From Sediminispirochaeta smaragdinae DSM 11293 (GTDB lineage: Bacteria; Spirochaetota; Spirochaetia; DSM-16054; Sediminispirochaetaceae), in the NCBI RefSeq assembly GCF_000143985.1, contig NC_014364.1, positions 496,001 through 560,000 of the forward strand: a DNA stretch of 64,000 bases, in the 5' to 3' direction. Below the pieces are notes generated by a model. It searched no databases. It saw only the letters and a program-made list of their open reading frames with translations, and had not been told where the DNA came from. Positions 9,751-52,954 of the stretch are shown piece after piece. The translations under genes were made by a program, and so were the position numbers. Positions within the stretch are counted from its first letter, which is position 1, and each line of letters begins with the position of its first letter.

Positions 9751-9780
9751 TTGAGAATTTTCTCAAGAAACGGTATAATC
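9751..9780 (+). promoter_or_regulatory. Sigma-70-type promoter overlapped by a perfect palindrome
   Basis: TTGAGA (9752-9757), 17-base spacer, TATAAT (9775-9780). The palindrome CTTGAGAATTTTCTCAAG (9751-9768) covers the -35 element and part of the spacer, a classic place for a repressor or activator. The predicted start is near 9787, and the chemoreceptor GTG is at 9825. Confidence 0.65.
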
Positions 9781-9824
9781 ATTAAAAATTGTCCATTTTC
9801 TTATATCATTAAAAGGGGAAAGCT

Positions 9825-11822
9825 GTGTCGATACGGGGAAAGCTTATATTATTAGTTAGTGGCATCATCGTTGTCTTCCTGTTGGCAATCGGAGCCTATA
9901 CCATTTCAAGGATGCCTTTGAAACAGATCCAGCAGGAACGTTATGTTTTTGATGACCTGAGGACTCGATTGATGACGTTACGTGCTGAGATGAACCGTCT
10001 CGACGCAACCAGCATAGAGCAGCAATGGAAGCAGGTTCAGGAAGCAAAAGCGGCAGTTGATGAGACCTTCATAATAGTGAAAAATCTCAAGACGCTGCCT
10101 TCCTTAAACGCCAAAATCGAAAAGTCGGTTTCCATTATCCTTAGGCTCGACGAGCTGTTCCGGGAAAAATATAGTGAAACAGAAAAGCTTGTGGGGCAGA
10201 TGATGGATGCTGCGAAAGATGTCTTTGTCTTCTCCGGTTCCATCGAGATGCTAGATTTTTATACCAATGCCAGGGCAAAGTCCCATCCGAAGATCCAACA
10301 ATACCAACTTCTGATCTCCAATTTTATTTCTGCGATCTATGTTGCCGATATGAACCTCAATTCTGCAGTTGAGGTTATCGGTGAACAGTACAGTATGATT
10401 GAAGATGAAGTGGCGAAGATTGAAAAGAAGAGTACCTATACGGTTCTCGGTATCATGGCGCTTCTCTTTTTGGTTATGGTTTTTGTTGCCGTGCGGATTG
10501 CAAATACCATTGGAAAGGGCGTTATAAAAATTGAGCGTGCCATTTCCGATTTGACCGATGGTGATTTGACCGTTCGTGCCGAGGTTATTTCAAAGGACGA
10601 TCTCGGTCGCCTTAGTGCCGACCTGAATCGTTTTATCGAGGCTCTTTCAACCACCGTAGAGAATATCAAGATAACCAGCGGAGAGAATATCACCGTTAAA
10701 GAGGATCTTGTGGTCACTATCAACGAGACATCGGCATCGGTTCAGCAGATGAGTGCCGGAGCCTCTTCTATCAAAGATCAGATGTCCAAACTGGATGTTC
10801 AGATTCGGGAGTCCACGAAAGAGGTCGATGTCGTTACCGAGGGAATTGGTGGTCTGAGCGATGCTCTGAACGATCAGGTAGCCATGGTGGAAGAGTCCAC
10901 CAGTTCGGTAACGGAAATGATCGCTTCAATCGGTAATGTTGCGGATATTACCCAGAAGAAACGGGCGGCCACCGAAAAATTGGTGCAGACCGCTCAGACC
11001 GGCGGAAATCAGCTTGATGCGACCACTGCTATTATCGAAGAGATAAACGGCCGGATAGGGGAGATTCGGGGAACCACCGATATCATTCAGAATGTGGCTG
11101 CCCAGACCAACCTCTTGGCCATGAATGCCGCCATTGAGGCTGCTCATGCCGGTGAATACGGTAGAGGCTTTGCCGTTGTAGCTGAAGAAATCCGAAAGCT
11201 TGCAGAGGCCTCTTCCCTTAATTCCAAGCAGATTGCCAAGGTCATCAAAGAGATGATTGCCCGTATTCAGGAGGCAAGCGATGCCGGTTCCGCTACAAAG
11301 CGCGCCTTTGCCGATATCGATACCGAGGTCAGGGGCGTGGCGAGCAGCCTTGATGAGATCAACTCCAGTATGATGGAGTTGCAGGCTGGAGGGCAGCAGA
11401 TTCTTGAAGCAATGACAAGTCTTCAGGATGTTTCTTCGAAGGTCCGTGAAGGCGGTGATCAGATGGGTGATGCCGCCGGTACCGTCAAGGACGCCATGGC
11501 GCAGGTCGATCGTATCTCCGCCGAGGTCTTGGGCAGTATCAGCGAAATTACTGCCGGTCTTTCCGAGGTCGGTAATGCAATGATGACTGTCAGTGACCTC
11601 ACTGAAAAGGTGAGCGGTATCTCAGAGGCTATGGATGAAGCGGTTCGCTTTTTCCGGACCGAAGAAAATGAGAGAGTGGAAGATGCGGAAGAGCTTGAGA
11701 GTTTCGACGAAGAGCATGATACTCAATCTGCACTTGAAACACTTGAAGTGCCGGACTTAGCCTCTGAAGAGGTCGAAGAGGATGAAAAAAGTAATGGAAC
11801 CGAAGAGAGGGATACGGAGTAA
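9825..11822 (+). CDS. Methyl-accepting chemotaxis protein
   Basis: A 665-residue receptor. TM1 lies near residues 8-28 and the extracytoplasmic helical sensor near 30-205. TM2 (near 207-227) is followed by HAMP (230-285) and a long signalling coiled coil. The tip [20 protein letters not shown] is canonical apart from L-to-M and R-to-H changes. The C-terminal 50 residues are very acidic (Glu/Asp rich) and probably disordered. The start is GTG with AAGGGGAAA upstream; no ATG fits before TM1. It is followed 28 bases later by an MFS gene, probably in the same transcript. Confidence 0.9.
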
Positions 11823-27561: not shown

Positions 27562-27674
27562 GAGAAAGGAGAATATTGTGTGGAGAGAGAAAAGAGAAAA
27601 TCTCCCCCCGCTACCCTGAATCAACGATTCCGGGTAGCATTGGGAAACACAAGCAACACCCAAGGGTGGACCCA

Positions 27675-28481
27675 ATGTATTCATACTACGATCTCTATCG
27701 TAACAGTAATAATCCAGTTCCATGCAGGATGGATATTGTCCAATATGCCAAGGAACACGGGATCAAGCCAACAGTCAGAGAGTTCAAAGCCACACCAACA
27801 ACAAAAAGCCGGGACTGAAGGATGTAAGCAAGCGGCCAGTACACTCTCCGAATAAAATGCTTCCCTACTGGTCTTTCAAAATCCAGGATGTCTGCAAAAC
27901 AGCGAAAAGAATAACAACCGTATCTCTGTTGTTTGGATCAAACAGAGATTGGCTGCCTTTGAGAAGATTCAGGTCGAATCGAGTATATGGATGATATTCC
28001 TGAGTTCTACGGGGCTTTGTACTACACCAATACCACGCTGTTTCTCCTGCGTCTGGGAGGGCATCTCAAGCGTTATGGCGTGGATCTCTCAAAGACGGTA
28101 TTCCAAATTGACAATGGGACAGAGTTTACAACGCCCTGGAACTCGATAGAGAAATCAGCCTTTACCAACGCCATCGCGAAGGGGTTTCAATCTGTTCACA
28201 GAACGATTTCACCGGGAGCGAAAACGTGGCAAAGCGATGTTGAGACTTCCCATAGACTTATTGAAGATAAATTGTGTGCCTGTGAATAGTTCTCCACCCG
28301 TCTGGACTTTTTAAAGAAAGCTGATGCCTATCAACGGTGGTTCAATTATGGAAGAGACAATGCTTATAAGAAGGGATCGCCAGTAGAGATGTTTCGTTTC
28401 GTTGCTGAAGATATTGATCCTTCGGTTTTTTCTTTAAAACCAATGATTGTTGACAACCATCTACAGGAGTTACAAAAATAA
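27675..28481 (+). pseudogene. Decayed rve-type (IS481-like) transposase
   Basis: Fragments of one transposase lie in different frames. The N-terminal helix-turn-helix part starts MYSYYDLYRNSNNPVPCRMD (from 27675). A middle part reads GLKDVSKRPVHSPNK and KNNN-type sequence after frame changes near 27815-27990. The integrase core is seen from 27987 (FQIDNGTEFTTPW, then VETSHRLIEDK with the late catalytic Glu). A TAG stop at 28287-28289 interrupts the frame, which then continues FSTRLDFLKKADAYQRWFNY to TAA at 28481. At least two frameshifts and one stop make it inactive. A GCTACCC...GGGTAGC hairpin lies before it (27610-27638). Confidence 0.8.
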
Positions 28482-28920
28482 GATCAGAAGTTTTGTCGCT
28501 TAATCTCGGGGGCATTCTCTCTTCAGATTCCAGGCGATAGCCATATTTCATTTCCCATATGGTAATGTTATACCATGAAGGTAAGGTTCTCGAGTATATA
28601 GCCGTGGTAAAAACGCCGTTATCCGACGGTCCCCATACAGATCCTGGCGAGTGGAACTACCGCATTGGGATCCTCGAAAATACTCGCTTCCGTATTAGTA
28701 TAGTAGCAAATTACTTTCTTCACCAATCGCTGTAAAAGCTTGTCGCGAGCCGTCGGAATCCCCAACGATTTGACCTGTCTTTGTTCGTATGAAATATTCT
28801 TCTAATGGGCAGGTCGGGCTTTGTTTAAAAAAGACAACCAGTAAGGGGTTCCAGAGTCAATACAAAGGAAGGAACAAGGAGAGCGTTACTGTAATCTCCC
28901 CTTAGTTTCTCCCGAACTAT
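28482..28920. other. Intergenic stretch with no supported gene
   Basis: Between the decayed transposase and the IclR gene. A stretch of about 52 codons is open on the minus strand near 28690-28860 (contains VVFFKQSPTCPLEEYFIRT), but it has no start codon or ribosome site. It may be a leftover of a broken gene. Nothing else is seen. Confidence 0.5.
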
Positions 28921-29706
28921 TTAAATGATATCGTCATAGCCCATGACTGCAGATATGCGATGTGCAGTCTCCTGCAGTTTTGGGAACATCTGGTCGATTT
29001 CCTCGGCACTCATGTAGCTTTCAAGAGCTGATGCGCTTAGACCGGCGATGATACGCCTGTTTTTGTCGAAAATGGGGACGGCGGTGCAGTTGTCGCCGGA
29101 GATAAATTCGTTGCGGTCACGCCCCACCATCTCCTTTCTAACTTTTATCAACTCCTGTTTGAGTGCTTCGGGAGAGGTGATGGTATGCACTGTATATTGC
29201 TTGAGTCCCTTCTCCGTTATCAGCTGGTTAATTTCCTCCTCGGGAAGTGTACAGGTAAGGATTTTGCCCAATCCCGAGCAATGGAACGGTAATACCCTAC
29301 CGGGGGTGAAGTATGTGCGGGGAAGGTTCTGGCTGTCGATCCGGTCGATGACCAAAACTTCGCCTTGGTAGTATACGGCTATGTTGATGTTTGCATTCGG
29401 ATATTGGCTCCAAAGCATTTCCATGTATGGAAAGGCGATTTTCCTCAGTTCGATGGATCGAAGGGCATTGCGGGAAAGTTTAAGTGATTTGAGGGAAATG
29501 AAATAACAATTCGATCCTTCGTCTTTCTGCAGATATCCGGAATTCTGCAAAGATGCCAGGAGTCTGAACGCCATATTGTTGTTTAGATTGAGGGCTCCGG
29601 TGATTTCCTGAAACGAAACAGGATGGTTGCGTTCACTTATATAATCCAAAATTTCAAAACTGCGTTCAACAGCTTTGATTGTATATTTGTCAGCGTCAGA
29701 TGACAT
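28921..29706 (-). CDS. IclR-family transcriptional regulator
   Basis: A 261-residue regulator. The winged helix-turn-helix covers about 10-75 (AVERSFEILDYISERNHPVS, then ITGALNLNNNMAFRLLASL). The IclR effector-binding GAF-like domain covers about 80-255 (LPFHCSGLGKILTCTLPEEE; GDNCTAVPIFDKN). The start at 29706 has AAAGGGAG upstream. It is divergent from the tripartite-transporter operon across a 660-base gap and is its likely regulator. IclR proteins usually sense an intermediate of the pathway they control; the ligand here is unknown. Confidence 0.88.
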   Translation of the reverse strand: MSSDADKYTIKAVERSFEILDYISERNHPVSFQEITGALNLNNNMAFRLLASLQNSGYLQKDEGSNCYFISLKSLKLSRNALRSIELRKIAFPYMEMLWSQYPNANINIAVYYQGEVLVIDRIDSQNLPRTYFTPGRVLPFHCSGLGKILTCTLPEEEINQLITEKGLKQYTVHTITSPEALKQELIKVRKEMVGRDRNEFISGDNCTAVPIFDKNRRIIAGLSASALESYMSAEEIDQMFPKLQETAHRISAVMGYDDII

Positions 29707-29972
29707 CGTACAGCTCCCTTTCAATAATTTATAATACACTATAAAAAAAAGTTTGGATAGGAATAAGAAATATAAAAATTTTATATGGGTACCTCTAAAA
29801 ACCGCCCGAAATAAGTTTTCGAGGTATAAATCGAATTCATAACAAAGTTACCCATATCAATAGCCGGGGTCACTACAGTTTTCCAAATACCATTTTCCCT
29901 CATGGCTATGCTTTTTGTTGCTATATGGAACGGTTCATATATATGCTCCCTCGAACTCAAAGCTTTGACTTT

Positions 29973-30224
29973 TTATTGTTTTTTCTTTTTGTGTTTCCGT
30001 AAGCGGATTATTCTTCTGCACTCTTCCTCTAATAGTTCTTTCAGGAATTTGCAGTACTGATCCTGTAGTTGCAGCACAAGGATCTTGAACAGCATAACGT
30101 AATCAAATGGATGCTGTCCCCTGGTCTTTTTGATTCTTTTCTGAAGTTTTTCAAGAATTGGCGAAAATATCCTATTCGACATATTAGCCAAGTTCTGAAT
30201 CGGCTCTCCTTTATAGTTTCAAGA
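29973..30224 (-). pseudogene. N-terminal fragment of an IS5/IS1182-type transposase
   Basis: The frame contains GEPIQNLANMSNRIFSPILE followed by GQHPFDYVMLFKILVLQLQD. It matches the conserved opening of IS5-group transposases (a phrase like PFDYVLMFKILVLQ). It then degenerates into a Lys/Arg-rich tail and stops. The rest of the transposase is missing. A possible element end, GGGTACCTCTAAAAACC, lies at about 29788-29804. The remaining gap (29707-29972 and 30225-30269) is AT-rich with no further gene. Confidence 0.65.
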
Positions 30225-30269
30225 TATGTTCTAAAAAATCAAAAATACTTATAAAAATTAAGAAATTAT

Positions 30270-30299
30270 TTGACAAATTTTAAAAAACTGCTTTATAAT
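30270..30299 (+). promoter_or_regulatory. Sigma-70-type promoter of the tct catabolic operon
   Basis: Perfect TTGACA (30270-30275) and TATAAT (30294-30299) with an 18-base spacer in an A/T-rich background. The predicted start is near 30306, about 60 bases before the first gene. An IclR binding site is likely in this gap but was not identified. Confidence 0.75.
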
Positions 30300-30368
30300 C
30301 ATTTTAAATTCAAATAGCTGATCTGTTTTTTCAAAATAACAGTATCTTGACTTGAAGTGAGGACAAAT

Positions 30369-31253
30369 ATGAAGATTGGATTTATTGGTTTGGGGATTAT
30401 GGGCAAGCCTATGGTCAGGAATTTGTTGAAAGCGGGCTACGAAGTAACTGTATATGATATTGTGGCTGTAAATATGGACGATGCTGTACAGGCTGGCGCT
30501 TATCGGGGAACGAGTCCTGCAAACATTGCTGCAGGCAGCGACCTGGTCATCACCATGCTCCCAAACTCACCCCATGTGAAGAGTGTCGTTTTGGGTGAGA
30601 ACGGCGTCTTGACTGGAGCGAAAAGCGGTCTTAAGTACGTCGATATGTCCTCGATCGCCCCGCTTGCAAGCAAGGAGATCGGAAAAGCATGTGCTGAGAA
30701 AGGGGTACGAATGCTGGATGCTCCCGTTTCCGGTGGAGAACCCAAAGCCGTGGATGGTACCCTGTCCATTATGGCAGGTGGTGAGCAGGCACTGTTTGAC
30801 GAAGTGAAACCGGTGCTTGAATGTATGGGCGCTTCGGTTGTCCTGTGTGGCGACATCGGTGCGGGAAATACCACAAAACTGGCAAACCAGATGATCGTTG
30901 CCGGAAATATTGCCATCCTTGCTGAAGCCTTGACCCTTGCAAAGAAAGCCGGGGTGAATCCTCAGACAGTGTTTGAAGCCATTCAAGGAGGACTTGCCGG
31001 CTCGACGGTTATGCAGGCGAAGGCTCCTATGATGATTGCTTCAGATTTCAAACCTGGGTTCAAGATTGATCTACACATCAAGGACTTGAATAATGCCATT
31101 GCAACCGGACACGACATCGGTTCCCCGTTGTTCCTGACCACTTCTGTCCAGGAAATGTTTGAAATGCTCCATGCCGACGGATGCGGACAGGATGATCACA
31201 GCGGTTTGGCAAAGTATTATGCTAAGATTTCGGGCACGACCATAGGAGCATAA
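30369..31253 (+). CDS. Beta-hydroxyacid dehydrogenase (tartronate semialdehyde reductase/3-hydroxyisobutyrate dehydrogenase family)
   Basis: A 294-residue NAD(P)-dependent oxidoreductase. The dinucleotide motif is GFIGLGIMGKPM (residues 4-15). The substrate block DAPVSGGEPKAVDGTLSIM and the catalytic-lysine block GAGNTTKLANQMIVAGNI are also present. Its pattern is closest to GarR/GlxR-type 2-hydroxy-3-oxopropionate reductases, though isobutyrate-type activity is possible. ATG 30369 was chosen over an upstream GTG because GAGGA lies 5-6 bases before it. It is the first gene of the operon and is followed after 1 base by the DapA-family gene. Confidence 0.85.
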   Translation: MKIGFIGLGIMGKPMVRNLLKAGYEVTVYDIVAVNMDDAVQAGAYRGTSPANIAAGSDLVITMLPNSPHVKSVVLGENGVLTGAKSGLKYVDMSSIAPLASKEIGKACAEKGVRMLDAPVSGGEPKAVDGTLSIMAGGEQALFDEVKPVLECMGASVVLCGDIGAGNTTKLANQMIVAGNIAILAEALTLAKKAGVNPQTVFEAIQGGLAGSTVMQAKAPMMIASDFKPGFKIDLHIKDLNNAIATGHDIGSPLFLTTSVQEMFEMLHADGCGQDDHSGLAKYYAKISGTTIGA

Positions 31254-31254
31254 T

Positions 31255-32175
31255 GTGAATTCGGAGTTTATCAAAGGGATCATCCCTCCCATCGTGACTC
31301 CTGTCACCGTAGACGAGCAGATTGATGAGCAGGCTTTGCGGAATCAAATTGATTTCATGATTGACGGAGGTATCGATGGAATTCTTGCCTTTGGCTCGAA
31401 CGGTGAATTCTACATGTTCGGTCAGGAGGAGATGCGGTTTGTCTTGTCAGTCCTCATAGACCAGGTACGCGGGCGTATTCCCGTATATATGGGCATCGGG
31501 GCCATCCGGACCAGTACATGCATCAATCTTGCCAAAATGGGGTTGGACTTGGGAGTTGATGGGATATCGGTTTTGCAACCGATGTTCCTCAAACCGACGG
31601 AGGATGAGTTGGAGACTCACCTGTCTTCAATTGCGGAGAGTATTTCTGGTACACCCATGTTGCTGTACAACAATCCCGGACGTACCGGTTATGGAATGAG
31701 TCAGGATATGGTATGGCGTCTTGCCCATACCTACGAGAATATTGTCGGTATGAAAGACAGTAGCGGGGATATGACGCAGACCATTGAATTCATCAGAAGA
31801 AACCGGGATGTGGGATTCAGAGTGATGAGCGGAAAAGATACTCTGATCTATTCGGGAATGTGTGCAGGAGCTGTAGGTGCTGTGTGTTCAACTGCAAATT
31901 TTCTTCCCGATTTGGTCTGTTCCATCTACCGGAAATTTATTGCCGGAGATTGTCAGGGATCCTTGGAAGCACAATGGAGACTCAATCCAATTCGTTTGCA
32001 GATGGACAAGTCGAGTTTTCCGGTTGCTACAAAGGATTATGCCAATCTTTTGGGGCATGAAGTGGGAAGACCAGTGTTGCCCAGTAAATGTTCTCCTGAA
32101 CCGATTATGGCCCAGTTGGGCAAATGTCTTAAAGACAACGGGTTTCTGCTGGCTGAGCACGGAACTTCTTCATAG
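31255..32175 (+). CDS. DapA/N-acetylneuraminate lyase-family aldolase or dehydratase
   Basis: A 306-residue Schiff-base (class I) enzyme. Active-site Tyr138 lies in LLYNNPGRTG and the Schiff-base Lys167 in GMKDSSGD. The residue triad environment GSNGEF replaces the GTTGE of lysine-pathway DapA, which together with the catabolic neighbours argues for a sugar-acid or 2-oxo-acid lyase rather than lysine synthesis. The start is GTG with AGGAG 6 bases upstream. It is part of the IclR-controlled TctABC operon; the substrate is likely the carboxylate taken up or its first product. Confidence 0.85.
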   Translation: MNSEFIKGIIPPIVTPVTVDEQIDEQALRNQIDFMIDGGIDGILAFGSNGEFYMFGQEEMRFVLSVLIDQVRGRIPVYMGIGAIRTSTCINLAKMGLDLGVDGISVLQPMFLKPTEDELETHLSSIAESISGTPMLLYNNPGRTGYGMSQDMVWRLAHTYENIVGMKDSSGDMTQTIEFIRRNRDVGFRVMSGKDTLIYSGMCAGAVGAVCSTANFLPDLVCSIYRKFIAGDCQGSLEAQWRLNPIRLQMDKSSFPVATKDYANLLGHEVGRPVLPSKCSPEPIMAQLGKCLKDNGFLLAEHGTSS

Positions 32176-32202
32176 GGTGCCGAATGGCTGAAGGAAGAAC
32201 AG

Positions 32203-32679
32203 ATGTATAGAAAATATAAAGACGTGGTCAGTGCCGTAATCATTTTCATGGCAGGCCTGATCTATTTCATACTTTCATTTTCCATACGGCAATATGGAGA
32301 TGCCGCAGTCGATTCGAGTTTCCTTCCTCGGATTCTCGGTGGATTGCTGTTGTTGTTGAGCTCTGTCCAAATCGTTTCCGGTATTCGAAAAGCTAATGCT
32401 ATCTCCGTTTCCGACAAGGATTCCATGGTCGGACATGTCGGATATCTTCCCGTGGTGCTGACCCTTCTGCTGATGTTTGCCTATGCTGCCGGAATGAAAC
32501 CACTGGGATTCTTGTTATCCACGATTGCCTTTGTGTTTTTCCAGGCATTGGTTCTGATTCCGAAGAAGCAACGGAACTATATTGTGATATCCATCGTTTC
32601 CGTTGTGTTCTCGGTTGCCGTCTATTTGGTCTTTACCAGGGTTTTCTCGTTGGTGTTGCCTCATGGGATTCTTGGATAG
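32203..32679 (+). CDS. tctB: TctB small membrane subunit of a tripartite tricarboxylate transporter
   Basis: A 158-residue protein with four predicted membrane segments (near 10-28, 42-60, 84-115, 124-150). DSSFLPRILGGLLLLLSSVQ, the conserved N-terminal block, is present. Size and position before a 495-residue TctA gene are diagnostic. It forms the inner-membrane complex with TctA and works with the periplasmic TctC. The ribosome site is GAAGGAAGAA. Confidence 0.88.
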   Translation: MYRKYKDVVSAVIIFMAGLIYFILSFSIRQYGDAAVDSSFLPRILGGLLLLLSSVQIVSGIRKANAISVSDKDSMVGHVGYLPVVLTLLLMFAYAAGMKPLGFLLSTIAFVFFQALVLIPKKQRNYIVISIVSVVFSVAVYLVFTRVFSLVLPHGILG

Positions 32680-32691
32680 GGGGAAAGAATA

Positions 32692-34179
32692 ATGATTCTA
32701 CAAAGCTTTCTGGCGGTGGTATCTCCCGTCTGTTTCCTTTGGATTCTTCTTGGGACGGTCGTAGGAATCATCTTCGGGGCCATTCCCGGACTGACTGCCA
32801 CTATGGCCATCGTTATGTTTATTCCTGTGACCTACAGCCTTCCGCCTGTTGTCAGTATTGCCTTGTTGATGTCCCTTTATATCGGTGGAATCTCGGGTGG
32901 TTTGATTCCTGCGATCCTTTTGAACATCCCCGGTACCCCGGCTTCCATCGCAACCTGTTTCGATGGAAGACCTATGGCGGTCAATGGGGAAGGAGGTAAG
33001 GCGCTTGGATATGGGGTTGTGTTCAGTTTTTTCGGTACTGTATTGAGTGTCCTGGCATTGGTGTTGATATCTCCGTTACTTGCTGCATTAGCCATCAAAT
33101 TTGGACCATTCGAATACTCTGCGGTGACAATTTTCTCCCTTTCTCTGATCATCACCTTGTCTGCGGAAAACTTGGTGAAAGGGCTTATCACCGGTATCAT
33201 TGGACTGATCTTTGCAACGGTTGGGATGGCGCCCATCGATTCAGTAACACGGTATACGTTCGGTACGGTGAATCTCCGATCAGGATTTGACATCTTGACT
33301 GTATTGGTCGGCATCTATGCGATCCCTGAAATTCTTGCTGCAGCAGAAAACAGCAGGATGTTGAATAAGATTGATACCAGTGCGATCGGTAAGGTGAGTA
33401 TCCGCGGATTCGGCTTTTCCTTCAAAGACTTTGTTGGGCAGATCTGGAATGCCACCCGCAGTGCACTTATCGGCATAGGATTAGGGATTCTGCCGGGAAT
33501 CGGGAACGGAACATCCAATATTCTTGCATATTCGGTAGCGAAGAACCAGTCGAAGCATCCTGAAAAGTTCGGGACCGGTATTCCTGACGGTATTGTCGCT
33601 ACAGAATCGGCGAACAATGCGACCATCGGAGGGACAATCATTCCGTTGCTGACGTTGGGCATTCCCGGTGATTCCACAGCAGCACTGTTGTTGGGTGCCT
33701 TCATTATCAACGGCATCACCCCTGGTCCCCTGATTTTCCAACAGAATGGGAATATCGTTTATGCGGTCTATTTTGCCATGATTCTTGCAAGCATCGCCAT
33801 GTTGCTCTTTGAGTTGTTTGGAATCAACCTGTTTGTAAAGATCTTGCAGATCCCCAAACATCTGCTGTTCCCGATCGTATTTATCCTGTGCGCGATAGGT
33901 GCCTTCGGCTTGAACAACCGGCTTTTTGATGTCTATGTACTGATTTGTTTTGGCATCGTCGGATACTTTCTGAAAAAGTCAGATTATCCCTTGCCCCCGT
34001 TGATCCTTGGATTTGTGCTTGGCCCGATATTCGAATTGAATTTTAGAAGGGCTTTGTCGTACTCGCAGGGAAGTTTTCTGCCCTTCCTCACACAACCTAT
34101 TGCACTGGCCTTCCTGGTACTGACCATTGTTTCTGTGGGGTTCGGGATTTCAAAGAGACGGAGACGGGGCGCCTTTTAA
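32692..34179 (+). CDS. tctA: TctA large membrane subunit of a tripartite tricarboxylate transporter
   Basis: A 495-residue permease with about 12 helices. The duplicated family signatures are clear: GTVVGIIFGAIPGLTATMAI (near 21-40) and GLGILPGIGNGTSNILAYSV (near 265-284), plus GTIIPLLTLGIPGDSTAALL. It carries out secondary, ion-driven uptake of a carboxylate. It starts 12 bases after tctB and is followed by tctC. The Leu codons here are mostly TTG/CTG, unlike the CTT/CTC style of the flanking regions, hinting at different ancestry. Confidence 0.93.
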   Translation: MILQSFLAVVSPVCFLWILLGTVVGIIFGAIPGLTATMAIVMFIPVTYSLPPVVSIALLMSLYIGGISGGLIPAILLNIPGTPASIATCFDGRPMAVNGEGGKALGYGVVFSFFGTVLSVLALVLISPLLAALAIKFGPFEYSAVTIFSLSLIITLSAENLVKGLITGIIGLIFATVGMAPIDSVTRYTFGTVNLRSGFDILTVLVGIYAIPEILAAAENSRMLNKIDTSAIGKVSIRGFGFSFKDFVGQIWNATRSALIGIGLGILPGIGNGTSNILAYSVAKNQSKHPEKFGTGIPDGIVATESANNATIGGTIIPLLTLGIPGDSTAALLLGAFIINGITPGPLIFQQNGNIVYAVYFAMILASIAMLLFELFGINLFVKILQIPKHLLFPIVFILCAIGAFGLNNRLFDVYVLICFGIVGYFLKKSDYPLPPLILGFVLGPIFELNFRRALSYSQGSFLPFLTQPIALAFLVLTIVSVGFGISKRRRRGAF

Positions 34180-34218
34180 TTGCAACTTACCGGAAAAACC
34201 GGTTGAAAGGAGATGAAT

Positions 34219-35190
34219 ATGAAGAAAAGATTGATGATCGTCGCGGTGTTTGTACTTTGTCTGACTTCGGTATGGGCAAACGGCCAGAAAGAAAAAGGGA
34301 CAGATGACTGGCCTTCCAAACCGATCCAAATGATTGTTCCGTTCAGAGCTGGCGGCGACAGTGATTTTAATGCACGTGTGTATGCAAAATACCTGGAGGA
34401 TGTGCTTGGACAATCCATTGTTGTGGTGAATGTCGATGGTGGCGGCGGATCGATCGGTGCAACCGAAGCCAAGAATGCCACGCCCGACGGGTACACAGTC
34501 TTCCTCGGCGATGTCGCCCTCGCGTTGAATGAAGCTTCGTCTCTGACCGATTTCGGATATGAGGCGTTTGAGTGCGCTGGTATCGTCGGCAAGAATTCCG
34601 GCGAATATCTGACGGTCCGTTCCGATTTTCCTGCTGATTCCGCTCCGGAATTGATCGCTTTGACGCAGGAAGAACCCAACAAGTACAAGTTGGCGGCGAA
34701 TACCGGTGCGACTACATATTATGCAGCCTCAGTATTGAAAAAGCTCGGCGCCCAATTCAATATCGTTAATGCCGGCAGTTCCTCCGAACGGGTTGCATCC
34801 CTGAAGGGTGGCCATATCGATGCCATGTTCAACTCAATGGGAACTATCAAAGATTATGTCCAAAACGATGATTTCAAGATTTTGGGTTCCGCAGCTTCTG
34901 AACGTGCACAAGCCTATCCGGATTATCCTACCATGAAGGAGCAGGGGATTGACCTTGCCTATGATATCACCTACGTGATGTATTTTCCCAAGGGGACAGA
35001 CCCGGAAATTGCGCAGAAGTTCCATGCTGCCTGCAAGATTGTCTCTGAAAACCCTGAGTACGCCGAAGAGATCTTCAAAGCATACGGACAGTTTCCTTAT
35101 GTCGCCGACATCGACACTTCTCTAAAGCTTTTAAAGGAGGAACGCGACAAGTTTATGGCTTTCAAGGATGAATTCTCCACAGGAAAATAA
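34219..35190 (+). CDS. tctC: TctC periplasmic solute-binding protein
   Basis: A 323-residue exported binding protein. The signal peptide ends SVWANGQKEK without a lipobox. WPSKPIQMIVPFRAGGDSDF matches the ligand-binding opening of the Bug/TctC family, and GGSIGATEAKNATPDGYT carries the second ligand loop. The start at 34219 was chosen because AAGGAG lies 6 bases upstream; the ATG at 34213 is too close. A hairpin follows the stop, so TctC may be produced above its neighbours. The ligand cannot be read from sequence. Confidence 0.9.
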   Translation: MKKRLMIVAVFVLCLTSVWANGQKEKGTDDWPSKPIQMIVPFRAGGDSDFNARVYAKYLEDVLGQSIVVVNVDGGGGSIGATEAKNATPDGYTVFLGDVALALNEASSLTDFGYEAFECAGIVGKNSGEYLTVRSDFPADSAPELIALTQEEPNKYKLAANTGATTYYAASVLKKLGAQFNIVNAGSSSERVASLKGGHIDAMFNSMGTIKDYVQNDDFKILGSAASERAQAYPDYPTMKEQGIDLAYDITYVMYFPKGTDPEIAQKFHAACKIVSENPEYAEEIFKAYGQFPYVADIDTSLKLLKEERDKFMAFKDEFSTGK

Positions 35191-35214
35191 TGAACCTCTG
35201 ATTTGACGGAAACC

Positions 35215-35243
35215 ATTCCATAGGAGACCCTCTCCTATGGAAT
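35215..35243. terminator. Perfect 13-bp hairpin after tctC
   Basis: ATTCCATAGGAGA (35215-35227) pairs with TCTCCTATGGAAT (35231-35243) around CCC. There is no T run on the plus strand, so it is more likely a message-stabilising or partial-termination structure between tctC and the aminotransferase gene. Confidence 0.6.
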
Positions 35244-35274
35244 ATTACTTTGCATGAGGAGTGTAGGAAGACAT

Positions 35275-36474
35275 ATGGAAACGAATAAGCAGTTGTTCGC
35301 CGAGCCGGAACATCTCCATTCGGTTGGATTCTCCCCGGTACGTCAGGTAATGGAAAAAATGCGGACACTGGAACGGCAGGGCCATCAAGTCATTCCGTTT
35401 CAGATTGGAGAACCTGATTTCGATACCCCACGATGTATTGTGGAAGCGACAAAACAAGCTTTGGATGCTAAGTTCACCCACTACGCCCCTAATCGGGGTT
35501 CGGTGGAGTTTCGGAAGGCAATCGGGCAATTGCTATTTCAAAAGGGACTGCAGTATGATCCGGAAACGGAGATTTTGGTTACCGTAGGTGGTGCGGAGGC
35601 TATTTTTGACGGAGTTTTCGCCTTTTTGGATAAAGGGGATGAAGTCATTGTCCCGACCCCGTCATTCATGAATTACCGCAATGATATTGCCATGGCAGGT
35701 GGCAGGTTTGTGGAATTGCCTCTACGTGCGGAAGACTCTTTTCAGATAAACATTACAGCCTTGAAACAAGCCATTACACCAAAGACGAAAATGCTCATCA
35801 TCAATAATCCGAGCAATCCTACGGGAATCATCTTTACTCCTGATGTGCTTAAGCAAGTCGCCAAGATTGCGGTACGCTACAATCTGATCGTATTCTCGGA
35901 TGAGATCTATGATGAGATCGTCTATGACGGGACTCCTTGTGTTTCCATTGCAACCTTTCCCGGAATGCGGGAGCGAACCATCGTCATGAATGGATTTTCG
36001 AAATCCTTTGCCATGACCGGATGGAGGGTCGGGTATCTCGCCGCACCTCCATCTGTCATCACTACCATGTTGAAGGTCCATCAGTATGTATCCACCTGCA
36101 TTCCGACTTTCATCCAGGAAGGACTTGCAAGTTCTATGCTTTCAGCAGAATGCCAGGCCGACCGAAGAGCTATGGTTGCAGCATTCTCCAGGAAACGGAA
36201 ATTGTTGCTTGAAGGATTATCGACAATTCCTCAATTGCGTTTTTCCGTACCTCATGGGGCGTTTTATGTTTTTGTAGATGTGTCGTCTTCAGGGGTGGAC
36301 GGTAGCCAATTTGCCGACAGACTACTTGCCGAAAGGCATGTAGCAGTGGTTCCCGGCATCGGGTTTTCCCCCTCTGCCAGTCGGTTTGTCAGATTTTCCT
36401 TTGCAACTTCAGAGGAGAACATTAGGGAAGGGGTAGAACGTATCCGCAGGTTTGTCGGATCTCTTGCCAAATGA
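35275..36474 (+). CDS. Class I/II aminotransferase (aspartate-aminotransferase superfamily)
   Basis: A 399-residue PLP enzyme. QIGEPDFDTP (substrate/cofactor entry), NNPSNPTGIIF (cofactor Asn), FSDEIYDEIVYDG (Asp/Tyr) and the PLP lysine in NGFSKSFAMTGWRVGYL are all present. It is the last gene of the tct cluster. It may aminate the oxo acid produced by the DapA-like lyase or remove an amino group from the imported compound. ATG 35275 has AGGAAG upstream; an earlier ATG at 35254 lacks a ribosome site. Confidence 0.87.
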   Translation: METNKQLFAEPEHLHSVGFSPVRQVMEKMRTLERQGHQVIPFQIGEPDFDTPRCIVEATKQALDAKFTHYAPNRGSVEFRKAIGQLLFQKGLQYDPETEILVTVGGAEAIFDGVFAFLDKGDEVIVPTPSFMNYRNDIAMAGGRFVELPLRAEDSFQINITALKQAITPKTKMLIINNPSNPTGIIFTPDVLKQVAKIAVRYNLIVFSDEIYDEIVYDGTPCVSIATFPGMRERTIVMNGFSKSFAMTGWRVGYLAAPPSVITTMLKVHQYVSTCIPTFIQEGLASSMLSAECQADRRAMVAAFSRKRKLLLEGLSTIPQLRFSVPHGAFYVFVDVSSSGVDGSQFADRLLAERHVAVVPGIGFSPSASRFVRFSFATSEENIREGVERIRRFVGSLAK

Positions 36475-36600
36475 GGAACCATTAAAAGTTTGTATTCAAC
36501 GGAACTATTCATGGTGGGGCGGACCAGGGGGTCCTGTTTGTCATGAACGCAATCGTCTGATTAGGCCATCCTAAAGGTCTTGTTTCGTATCAAAGTAATG

Positions 36601-43193: not shown

Positions 43194-43273
43194 CCCCTTC
43201 CTTTTCCCTGTATGCCAGTGTACAATGGCCCAATAACGAAAAACCATCAGCCGTTTCCCGGAAGGAAGGAGCC

Positions 43274-49157: not shown

Positions 49158-50896
49158 ATGGAGCAAATTCGTTGCAGCATCAAGACAAAACTTAATCTTA
49201 GCATCGGTAGTGCCGTGCTTTTTTTTCTGGCGCTTCTTCTTGTCATTAGTTATGGTCTTTTCAAGGATAGTGCACTGAAAAGTACCGAAGCGTTGAGCCT
49301 TGCCCTTCTTGACGGTACGGATAAGCAGATTGATGCCTTTTTCGGGGAGCTTGAGAGAATCACCCGCTCGGTGGCCGAATTCCCATCGGTCAGAGGGGTC
49401 GAGACGGAGCGCATGCAATTAGAATTTCTCGCTACGGTTCGTGCACGGAAGAGGATGTTGAGGGCCGTCTATCTCGGAACGGCGGAGGGGCAGATGTACG
49501 AATGGGGCTACGGTCCCGGTTTTGTCGATAATGCCCCGGTTTTTCCCTCCGATTACGATCCAAGAGAGCGACCGTGGTACAAGGCGGCATTGACTGCCGG
49601 AGATTACACCATAACCCGTCCCTATCTGTATGCCAGTGTTCCGGCAATTGGTATAACCGCGGTCATCCCCGTACGTACGGAAGGGGGGCGTTTTGTCGGG
49701 GTCCTCGGCGTAGACGTCATGCTTTCCGACCTCCAGCAAATCGTCGATGAGATGGATATGCATCACATCGGCAAGGTTGTGTTACTCAACAAAGAACAGG
49801 TTCCCATCGTCAATCAATTTGCGGAAGGGGTCTTTGATCCTTCGGTGGTGCCGAGTGAAGGGGACGGAAGTTTTATCCATACCTTCGGTGGTCAACTTTT
49901 CTATGTGGCGAGCAAGCAGAATAGAAGTAGCGGCTGGACCTTGCTTTTGGCGCTTCCTTATCGAAACATCATGGAACGACCAATGGCGACGATTCGCTTG
50001 ATGATTATGCTTGATGTCATGCTTATGCTTTTCCTCTTTGTTGCCCTGGGGGCATTGTCAACGGCTTTATCATTCATCCGTTACTCGCCATCGTAAAGGT
50101 GATACGAACCGTTGAGTCGGGGAAGCAGGATATTTCAATGGCCGTTGATACGGGGGATGAGATTGCCCTTCTCGCAGATGAGCTCAATGCCCTGGTAGTT
50201 CGTGTGAATGATTATTCTCGAAAAATGGAGGAGGAGGTCAGACGCCGGACAAAACAATTGACGGCATTGCAACAGGAAAATCTTCGACTCAGAGTCATTG
50301 AAGAAAAAGAACGAATTTACGGTTACCTCCACGACTCCCTTGGTGCACGACTGACAAATATTTTTCTTTCCAACAGTGTCGCCCAAAATTCTCACGACCC
50401 GGAACTCTTGAAAAACATGCATGAACGGATAGAAGATAATACCCAGCTTGCCATAGGAGATCTGAAGGAAATCCTTGCCGGGGCAGATACGGACACCAGG
50501 CGGATCATCGACTTTCGGCGTTTGGTTACCCACACCCTCGGCGATCGCCTGAAACTGCGGTATATTACTTTTCAGTGCAACATCGAAGATTCCGATCCAC
50601 TGAACGAGCTTCCCTATGCCTTACGTTTCGAGCTTGAAAATATCCTGCAGGAGCTGGTCAGCAATGTGTTAAAGCACTCGGGAGCCAAGTCCGTTACCCT
50701 CGATATCTCGGTTCATGATGGAGTGGTTAGAATCGCTTTTGAAGACGATGGAAAGGGCTTCGATCCTTCGGAGGCCTCCATTGGTTTCGGGATCAGAAAT
50801 ATGATGAACAGGGTCCGGGGAATGGGCGGCCGTTTTTCCCTCGACAGCAAACCGGGTGGTGGCACCAGGGTGTCTATTGAGGTAGAGGCAAGATGA
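49158..50896 (+). pseudogene. dCache sensor histidine kinase split by a frameshift at a G5 run
   Basis: The front part (49158-50096) encodes an N-terminal membrane segment (near 12-34) and a dCache extracytoplasmic sensor with YDPRERPWYKAALTAG, then a second helix. The back part, in the other frame, continues from about 50051 as HPLLAIVKVIRTVESGKQDI (HAMP) to a NarL-type kinase. Its H-box is YLHDSLGARLTN and its ATPase boxes are LVSNVLKHSG and FEDDGKGFDP. The two frames join at GGGGG (50048-50052); one extra G would give a single 579-residue kinase. It may be an inactivated gene, a phase-variable switch or a sequencing error. The response-regulator gene overlaps its stop (ATGA). Confidence 0.82.
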
Positions 50897-51543
50897 TCAG
50901 GATCATGATATGCGAAGATGAACGGGAGGCGAGGGAAGGTTTTCGCTATCTCTTGGGGCTTGATGAGGAGATACGTGTTGTCGGGGCTTTTGCTTCCGCC
51001 GAGCAGTTAATCGATTCGATCCGTGAAGTGGGGACTCCCGACGTGGTAATGATGGATATTGGCTTGCCTGAGATGAGCGGCATCGAGGCAACCAGAATCA
51101 TCCATGAAAAATGGCCTCAGATTAATATTTTGATTCTTACCATCTTCGAGGAGGAGGAGAAAATCCTTTCCGCCATTCAGGCCGGAGCATCGGGCTATGT
51201 ACTGAAAAATACCAGGCCGGGCGAGCTTACCAGTCAGATAAAAGCGCTCTACCGGGGCGGCAGTCCGATCAGTCCGCAGATTGCACGAACCCTTCTCGGA
51301 GAGCTTAGAAAAGAAAAATCTCCTGCCGACCATGTCGATTATAATTTAACTCCTCGGGAGCTTGATGTGGTAAAGGGGATTATCGCCGGTTACACCTACA
51401 GGGAGATTGCCGATCGCTACAATATTTCCGGTTCTACGGTGAAAAAGCATATCCTGCATATCTATAAAAAACTCAATGTAAGTAGTAGGGTCGAGTTCAT
51501 GAAAAAGATGTATGGGCCAAATGGCCCATTGTCCGCTTTATAA
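50893..51543 (+). CDS. NarL/FixJ-family response regulator
   Basis: A 216-residue regulator. The receiver has Glu8-Asp9, phosphoacceptor Asp55 (VVMMDIGLPEMSG) and Lys in YVLKNT. The C-terminal LuxR-type helix-turn-helix is LTPRELDVVKGIIAGYTYRE, then GSTVKKHILHIYKKL. It overlaps the kinase stop by 4 bases. It is followed after about 120 bases by a dicarboxylate/glutamate symporter gene, its likely target. A hairpin ATGGGCC-AAAT-GGCCCAT (51512-51529) lies in the last codons. Confidence 0.93.
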   Translation: MIRIMICEDEREAREGFRYLLGLDEEIRVVGAFASAEQLIDSIREVGTPDVVMMDIGLPEMSGIEATRIIHEKWPQINILILTIFEEEEKILSAIQAGASGYVLKNTRPGELTSQIKALYRGGSPISPQIARTLLGELRKEKSPADHVDYNLTPRELDVVKGIIAGYTYREIADRYNISGSTVKKHILHIYKKLNVSSRVEFMKKMYGPNGPLSAL

Positions 51544-51661
51544 GCTCTCCACCCATCGATTCTTTAAAAGAAAAATTCTCCTCCTGGCCCCTGGTCCCGT
51601 TCGATTTTCCGTGATGAAATGATAACTAAGGAAAATACACAAATAAAGGAGGCTTGTGCCT

Positions 51662-52954
51662 ATGAGCGCACAGGAAAAAAAGGGCGTAATGGACTGGTAT
51701 TTTAAATCAAATCTTCTGGTGAGGATCTTGATTGGCCTAGTCCTTGGTGCCATTGCCGGGATCATTTTCGGCTCATCAATTCTCTGGATCGCTCCTTTCG
51801 GTGATCTGTTTGTCAGGCTTCTTAAGATGATCGTGATGCCGGTAATCTTTGCCACCCTGGTTGTGGGGGCGGCCAGTATCAGTCCTGCTCGGCTCGGGAA
51901 GGTCGGTATCAAGATTGTACTGTTTTATCTACTGACTTCAGCCTTTGCCGTGGCCATCGGTCTTATTTTCGGGAACCTTTTTCATCCTGGTACCGGACTT
52001 GATCTTGCTTCGGTAGCCAATGCCTCTGGACGTGAGCTTGTGAAGCCTTCACTGACTTCGACACTGCTTAATATTGTTCCCACCAATCCCTTCAGCGCCA
52101 TTGCCGGAGGCGATGTGCTTCCTACGATCTTCTTTGCCATTATCTTCGGTATCGGGATCAGCTATCTGAAAATCAGCGAGAACGACAGAATCAAGCAGGC
52201 TGGTGATGTTCTGTTCCGCGTCTTTGACGGAGCCGCCGAGGTTATGTACATGGTTGTTCGCTGGGTGTTGCAGTATGCCCCCGTCGGAGTCTTTGCCTTG
52301 ATAGCCGTAGTTTTCGCCAAACAGGGAGCCGCTGCGGTCGGCCCTCTTGGAAAGGTCACCCTTGCCGTCTATATCGCCTTGATTGTGCATGTCTTCTTGG
52401 TGTATGGCGGCCTGCTCACGGCAAACAAACTTAACCTTTTTCATTTCCTCTCCGGGGCCAAAGAGGCGATGTTGACCGCCTTTGTCACCCGTTCTTCCAG
52501 CGGCACCCTGCCGGTAACCATGAAGTGCAGTGAGGAAAACCATGGGGTTGACCGAAATATTTACTCCTTTACCCTCCCGCTTGGTGCTACCATCAACATG
52601 GACGGTACTGCCATCTATCAGGGGGTCTGTGCGCTTTTTATCGGTTTTGCCATCGGCTTACCGCTGAATTTTACCCAGCAGATTACCATTATCATTACCG
52701 CTGTACTTGCATCGATCGGTACGGCAGGTGTTCCCGGAGCCGGTGCCATCATGCTTTTGATGGTCATGGATTCGGTCGGTCTTCCCATTACCGAGGGAAG
52801 TCCCGTTGCCGCCGCATATGCCATGATCCTTGGAATCGATGCCATTCTTGATATGGGCAGGACCTGTATCAACGTCACCGGCGATATGACCGGAACCTTA
52901 CTAATCGCCAAAAGCGAGAAACAAGTTGATATGAGTAAATGGCAGAAAAAGTAG
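51662..52954 (+). CDS. Dicarboxylate/amino-acid:cation symporter (DAACS family, GltP/DctA-like)
   Basis: A 430-residue transporter with 8 helices and re-entrant loops. [20 protein letters not shown] (HP1 serine-rich loop), [16 protein letters not shown] (NMDGT motif) and [20 protein letters not shown] (HP2) are all present. Residues late in the protein ([14 protein letters not shown]) include the Arg/Asp region that sets glutamate versus C4-dicarboxylate preference. The Arg-Thr-Cys-x-Asn-Val-Thr-Gly-Asp order fits an acidic amino acid or dicarboxylate substrate. ATG 51662 sits 9 bases after AAGGAGG; the GTG at 51656 is too near. Confidence 0.92.

Follow-up and report, generated by a model that had tools for sequence, protein, structure and literature searches.

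A frame break in a dCache sensor kinase gene of Sediminispirochaeta smaragdinae, probably a recent loss-of-function mutation beside a G run

The dCache sensor histidine kinase gene at positions 49158-50896 of the window (the whole stretch of 64,000 nucleotides analysed here, from the harmless, salt-loving bacterium Sediminispirochaeta smaragdinae DSM 11293) is interrupted by a single frame change. This is probably a recent and ordinary loss-of-function (pseudogene) allele affecting the sensor of a conserved kinase-regulator-symporter module. A one-base deletion at the TM2-HAMP junction would have divided a dCache-HAMP-HisKA_3-HATPase sensor kinase gene that was intact before; the upstream piece would now give a membrane sensor without a kinase, the kinase part would be unlinked from the sensor and, with the regulator and symporter genes left intact, sensor control would be lost. 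We infer that the cells really lack the base and that function has been lost. A literature search listed no title on this gene. The features discussed below are listed in Table 1.

Table 1. Features of the split kinase gene and of the two genes downstream (window positions)
Feature	Coordinates	Strand	Evidence
Upstream fragment: TM1, dCache_1 sensor, TM2	49158..50096	+	ORF; Pfam dCache_1 E 9.3e-20
Downstream frame: TM2 end, HAMP, HisKA_3-like region, HATPase_c	50015..50896	+	ORF, domain search
GGGGG run	50048..50052	+	Window sequence; also five Gs in congener G001 (same length)
One-base loss relative to G001 (window CA, G001 TAA)	50053..50054	+	MAFFT and blastn concordant
In-frame ATG, candidate internal start of a soluble kinase fragment (speculative)	50138..50140	+	AGGA ~7 bases 5' (spacing by eye)
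LuxR/NarL-type response regulator, intact	50893..51543	+	Response_reg E 1.1e-24, GerE E 1.7e-15; dN/dS 0.052
SDF-family (sodium:dicarboxylate) symporter, intact	51656..52954	+	SDF E 4.1e-125; dN/dS 0.053

The frame changes between 50015 and 50093. Starting at the ATG at 49158, the upstream frame extends to a TAA at 50094-50096 and codes for 312 amino acids, of which the final ~14, past the break, are out of frame. The downstream frame, one base back relative to the upstream one, is uninterrupted between 50015 and its stop codon (50894-50896) and includes a GTG-started ORF (from 50099; 265 amino acids) with HisKA_3/HATPase_c. The dCache, HisKA_3 and HATPase_c domains are all present in the window but are spread over two frames instead of lying in one chain, in agreement with a preliminary description of the sequence, which had recognized an interrupted dCache histidine kinase. 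According to the same description, one inserted G would restore the kinase. The frames do differ by one base, but an insertion anywhere in the stretch of ~80 bases that is open in both frames would rejoin them.

The congener G001 has an unbroken kinase of 579 amino acids, 96-98% identical to the two window pieces (97% for the upstream one), in which dCache, HAMP (residues 303-351), HisKA_3 and HATPase_c are found in one chain, the HAMP and HisKA_3 scores being a little below the curated cut-offs. When 394 genomes of the class were searched (cut-off E <= 1e-60), 33 had a match, the window genome included. The kinase is near full length and in one frame in 30 of the 32 others (without an inner stop in 29 of these 30), and matches in G003 and G087 were partial. 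Intact versions of the gene, whose existence in related genomes the preliminary description had left to be checked, are thus present. A two-piece match was obtained for the window genome only; none of the other 32 is split at this place. One orthologous kinase (L054, in G159) contains a single in-frame TGA in its sensor part and is possibly a second broken copy or a draft error. Genome searches, which may omit near copies, found no second assembly of the species.

Gene order around the intact kinase of G001 is the same as in the window. Outside the genus, 29 ortholog loci were retrieved from 31 genomes (two yielded no locus): the regulator adjoins the kinase in 28 of them and 22 of them showed the symporter, some loci stopping short of its position. 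Judged from these genomes, kinase, regulator and symporter form a conserved module in spirochaetes; the gene order suggests that the kinase and the regulator probably control the symporter. That the regulator and the symporter are intact, as previously described, is supported by their ORFs and domain matches. The window locus shares its domains and the adjacent regulator gene with known dCache-HAMP-HisKA_3-HATPase_c sensor kinases that have a NarL/LuxR-type regulator; it differs from them in that the kinase gene is split by a frameshift.

The preliminary description placed the break in the GGGGG run and suggested a change in run length as a means of phase variation. Neither proposal was supported by comparison with G001. 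In the alignment of the two genomes, five Gs are found in both, followed by CA in the window and by TAA in G001, a difference for which one transition and the loss of one A suffice. In the best alignment the lost base would sit just 3' of the G run, in an AA dinucleotide, beside the T/C difference. An ancestor with six Gs is disfavoured because two adjacent transversions relative to G001 would be needed besides the loss, against one transition with a deletion in AA. Among 29 more distant orthologs, none has a G or C run of at least five at the break site, the longest being four. Runs of at least five G or C are by no means rare: the 64 kb window contains 73, three of them in the kinase gene (GGGGG included). 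The proximity of this one to the break therefore carries little weight. On this evidence the G run appears to be a bystander. Two other clues to the event were tried and set aside. The adjacent substitution is uninformative as a sign of one complex mutation, since a mismatch adjoins 10 of 55 one-base indels against ~6 expected (from 5.5% divergence and two sides). The ortholog residue at the break left the identity of the lost base undecided, as A, G, V, I, L and F are among the residues found there.

A phase-variable switch operating by slippage in the G run is consequently highly improbable. A homopolymer does adjoin the break, and there is a precedent in the Bordetella sensor kinase gene bvgS, which is reported to switch between C6 and C7 (PMC1891110) and which shares with the window gene the interruption of a sensor kinase gene by a one-base length change. 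In the bvgS case as reported there, however, it is the run itself that changes, whereas the run in the window kinase is equal in length to that of the intact relative: a difference in tract length between the on and off copies was looked for between the broken and the intact gene and was not found. A run of five is also below the threshold of at least seven G or C given for Campylobacter tracts (PMC6321876).

Both halves had been described as well preserved, which was confirmed by comparison with G001: there are 7 nonsynonymous and 21 synonymous differences in the upstream half (dN/dS 0.094), 4 and 25 in the downstream half (dN/dS 0.045) and 0 and 7 in the 60 codons past the break. Both halves are at or below the regional median dN/dS (0.096; 149 ungapped ORFs). 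Should every change in the downstream half postdate the break, constraint would still have lapsed for at most ~21% of the branch. Since purifying selection was strong in both halves, the event is either recent or an error. As is characteristic of recent pseudogenes, the orthologs are intact and the gene was under purifying selection in the past. The earlier suggestion of a recent or reversible event thus holds for its first term, provided that the break is real; for the second, positive evidence of a phase switch is lacking. The window kinase resembles the recent frameshift pseudogenes and singleton frameshifts treated in PMC3711429 in that one genome is affected, homologues elsewhere are intact and a conserved slippery motif is lacking, and no notable difference from the cases described there was seen.

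Coding constraint well kept on both sides of the break is also the pattern expected if the cells carry an intact kinase and the database sequence is short of one base. We consider such an assembly or base-calling error possible but unlikely. It is made conceivable by the reported composition of the assembly, mainly 454 reads (58.8x) with 6.9x of Illumina (PMC3035371), and error is the favoured explanation for singleton frameshifts with protein support in the part of PMC3711429 that concerns them. The comparison with G001 covered 529 kb of alignment (202,529 + 326,672 bases). Indels in runs of at least five comprise 12 bases missing in the window genome versus 6 in G001 (p = 0.24), a slight and non-significant excess that gives a weak hint of some undercalled runs in the window genome; the aligned loss in the kinase, however, lies in AA rather than in a long run. 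Isolated one-base indels are evenly divided, with 27 bases absent from the window genome and 28 from G001, and open frames of at least 200 codons broken by non-triplet indels are similarly numerous (5 versus 4). Because of this balance and of the broken long ORFs in both species, the kinase break can be regarded as background gene loss. The published error rate of 0.2 per 100 kb (PMC3035371) predicts only ~1 error of any kind in 529 kb, and 87 pseudogenes are listed in the genome report (PMC3035371). The balanced indels, the similar broken ORFs in G001, the single predicted error and the listed pseudogenes together favour a real mutation, with the proviso that decay and assembly error are only partly separable by sequence comparison.

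The survey of broken ORFs gave 25 candidates over both regions under strict rules, and the counts above are restricted to open frames of at least 200 codons; an earlier frameshift survey with loose rules had given 11 candidates. A 1444-amino acid ORF at G000 575800, broken in G001, measures 167 codons by the strict rule and is outside the four quoted. Two candidates of the loose-rule survey were not counted: one at window position 43239, which falls 5' of a well-aligned regulator coding region, and one at G000 641056, which is at the alignment edge. Elsewhere (L012-L015, L082-L116, G000 3.54-3.94 Mb), further long ORFs are one base apart between the two species in homopolymers, for example at G000 3928246 (T9/T8) and 3731563 (C7/C6); these are candidates for an assembly-error check. 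About 9 kb of the window (27577-36531) is without a long G001 alignment, with ~18 kb in G001 instead, and would represent a species-specific region or a replacement. A 150-base stretch of L015 (near 9765-9920) matches ~40 places in the window genome, mostly at 72-84%; our guess is that it encodes the conserved signalling region of chemotaxis receptors.

It is improbable that the split gene still yields a kinase, either because the ribosome slips at the G run or by reinitiation at GTG 50099 or ATG 50138. Slipping back by one base at this run would bring the ribosome into the kinase frame without loss of a residue, an AGGA motif precedes ATG 50138, and both halves look constrained; the constraint is accounted for by recency, however, and at least one full-length ortholog (L009) lacks the methionine at that internal start. 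By eye, no standard X XXY YYZ slippery heptamer is present in frame. Programmed frameshifting was rejected on two grounds: the frameshift site is not conserved, no other matched genome being split at this place, and the RNA structure downstream is unremarkable (fold z -0.43 for 50054-50140). A working system in two pieces, with the dCache sensor in the membrane and a separately started soluble kinase, or a low level of full-length kinase made by G-run slippage, seems quite improbable; if either existed, control of the symporter would be uncoupled or damped.

A more general lesson is that, when a homopolymer lies next to a frame break, phase variation should be proposed only after the site has been compared with that of a close relative. 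The significance of the finding is mostly local: it concerns a kinase-regulator-symporter module that is conserved in spirochaetes and of which one sequenced strain carries a broken sensor.
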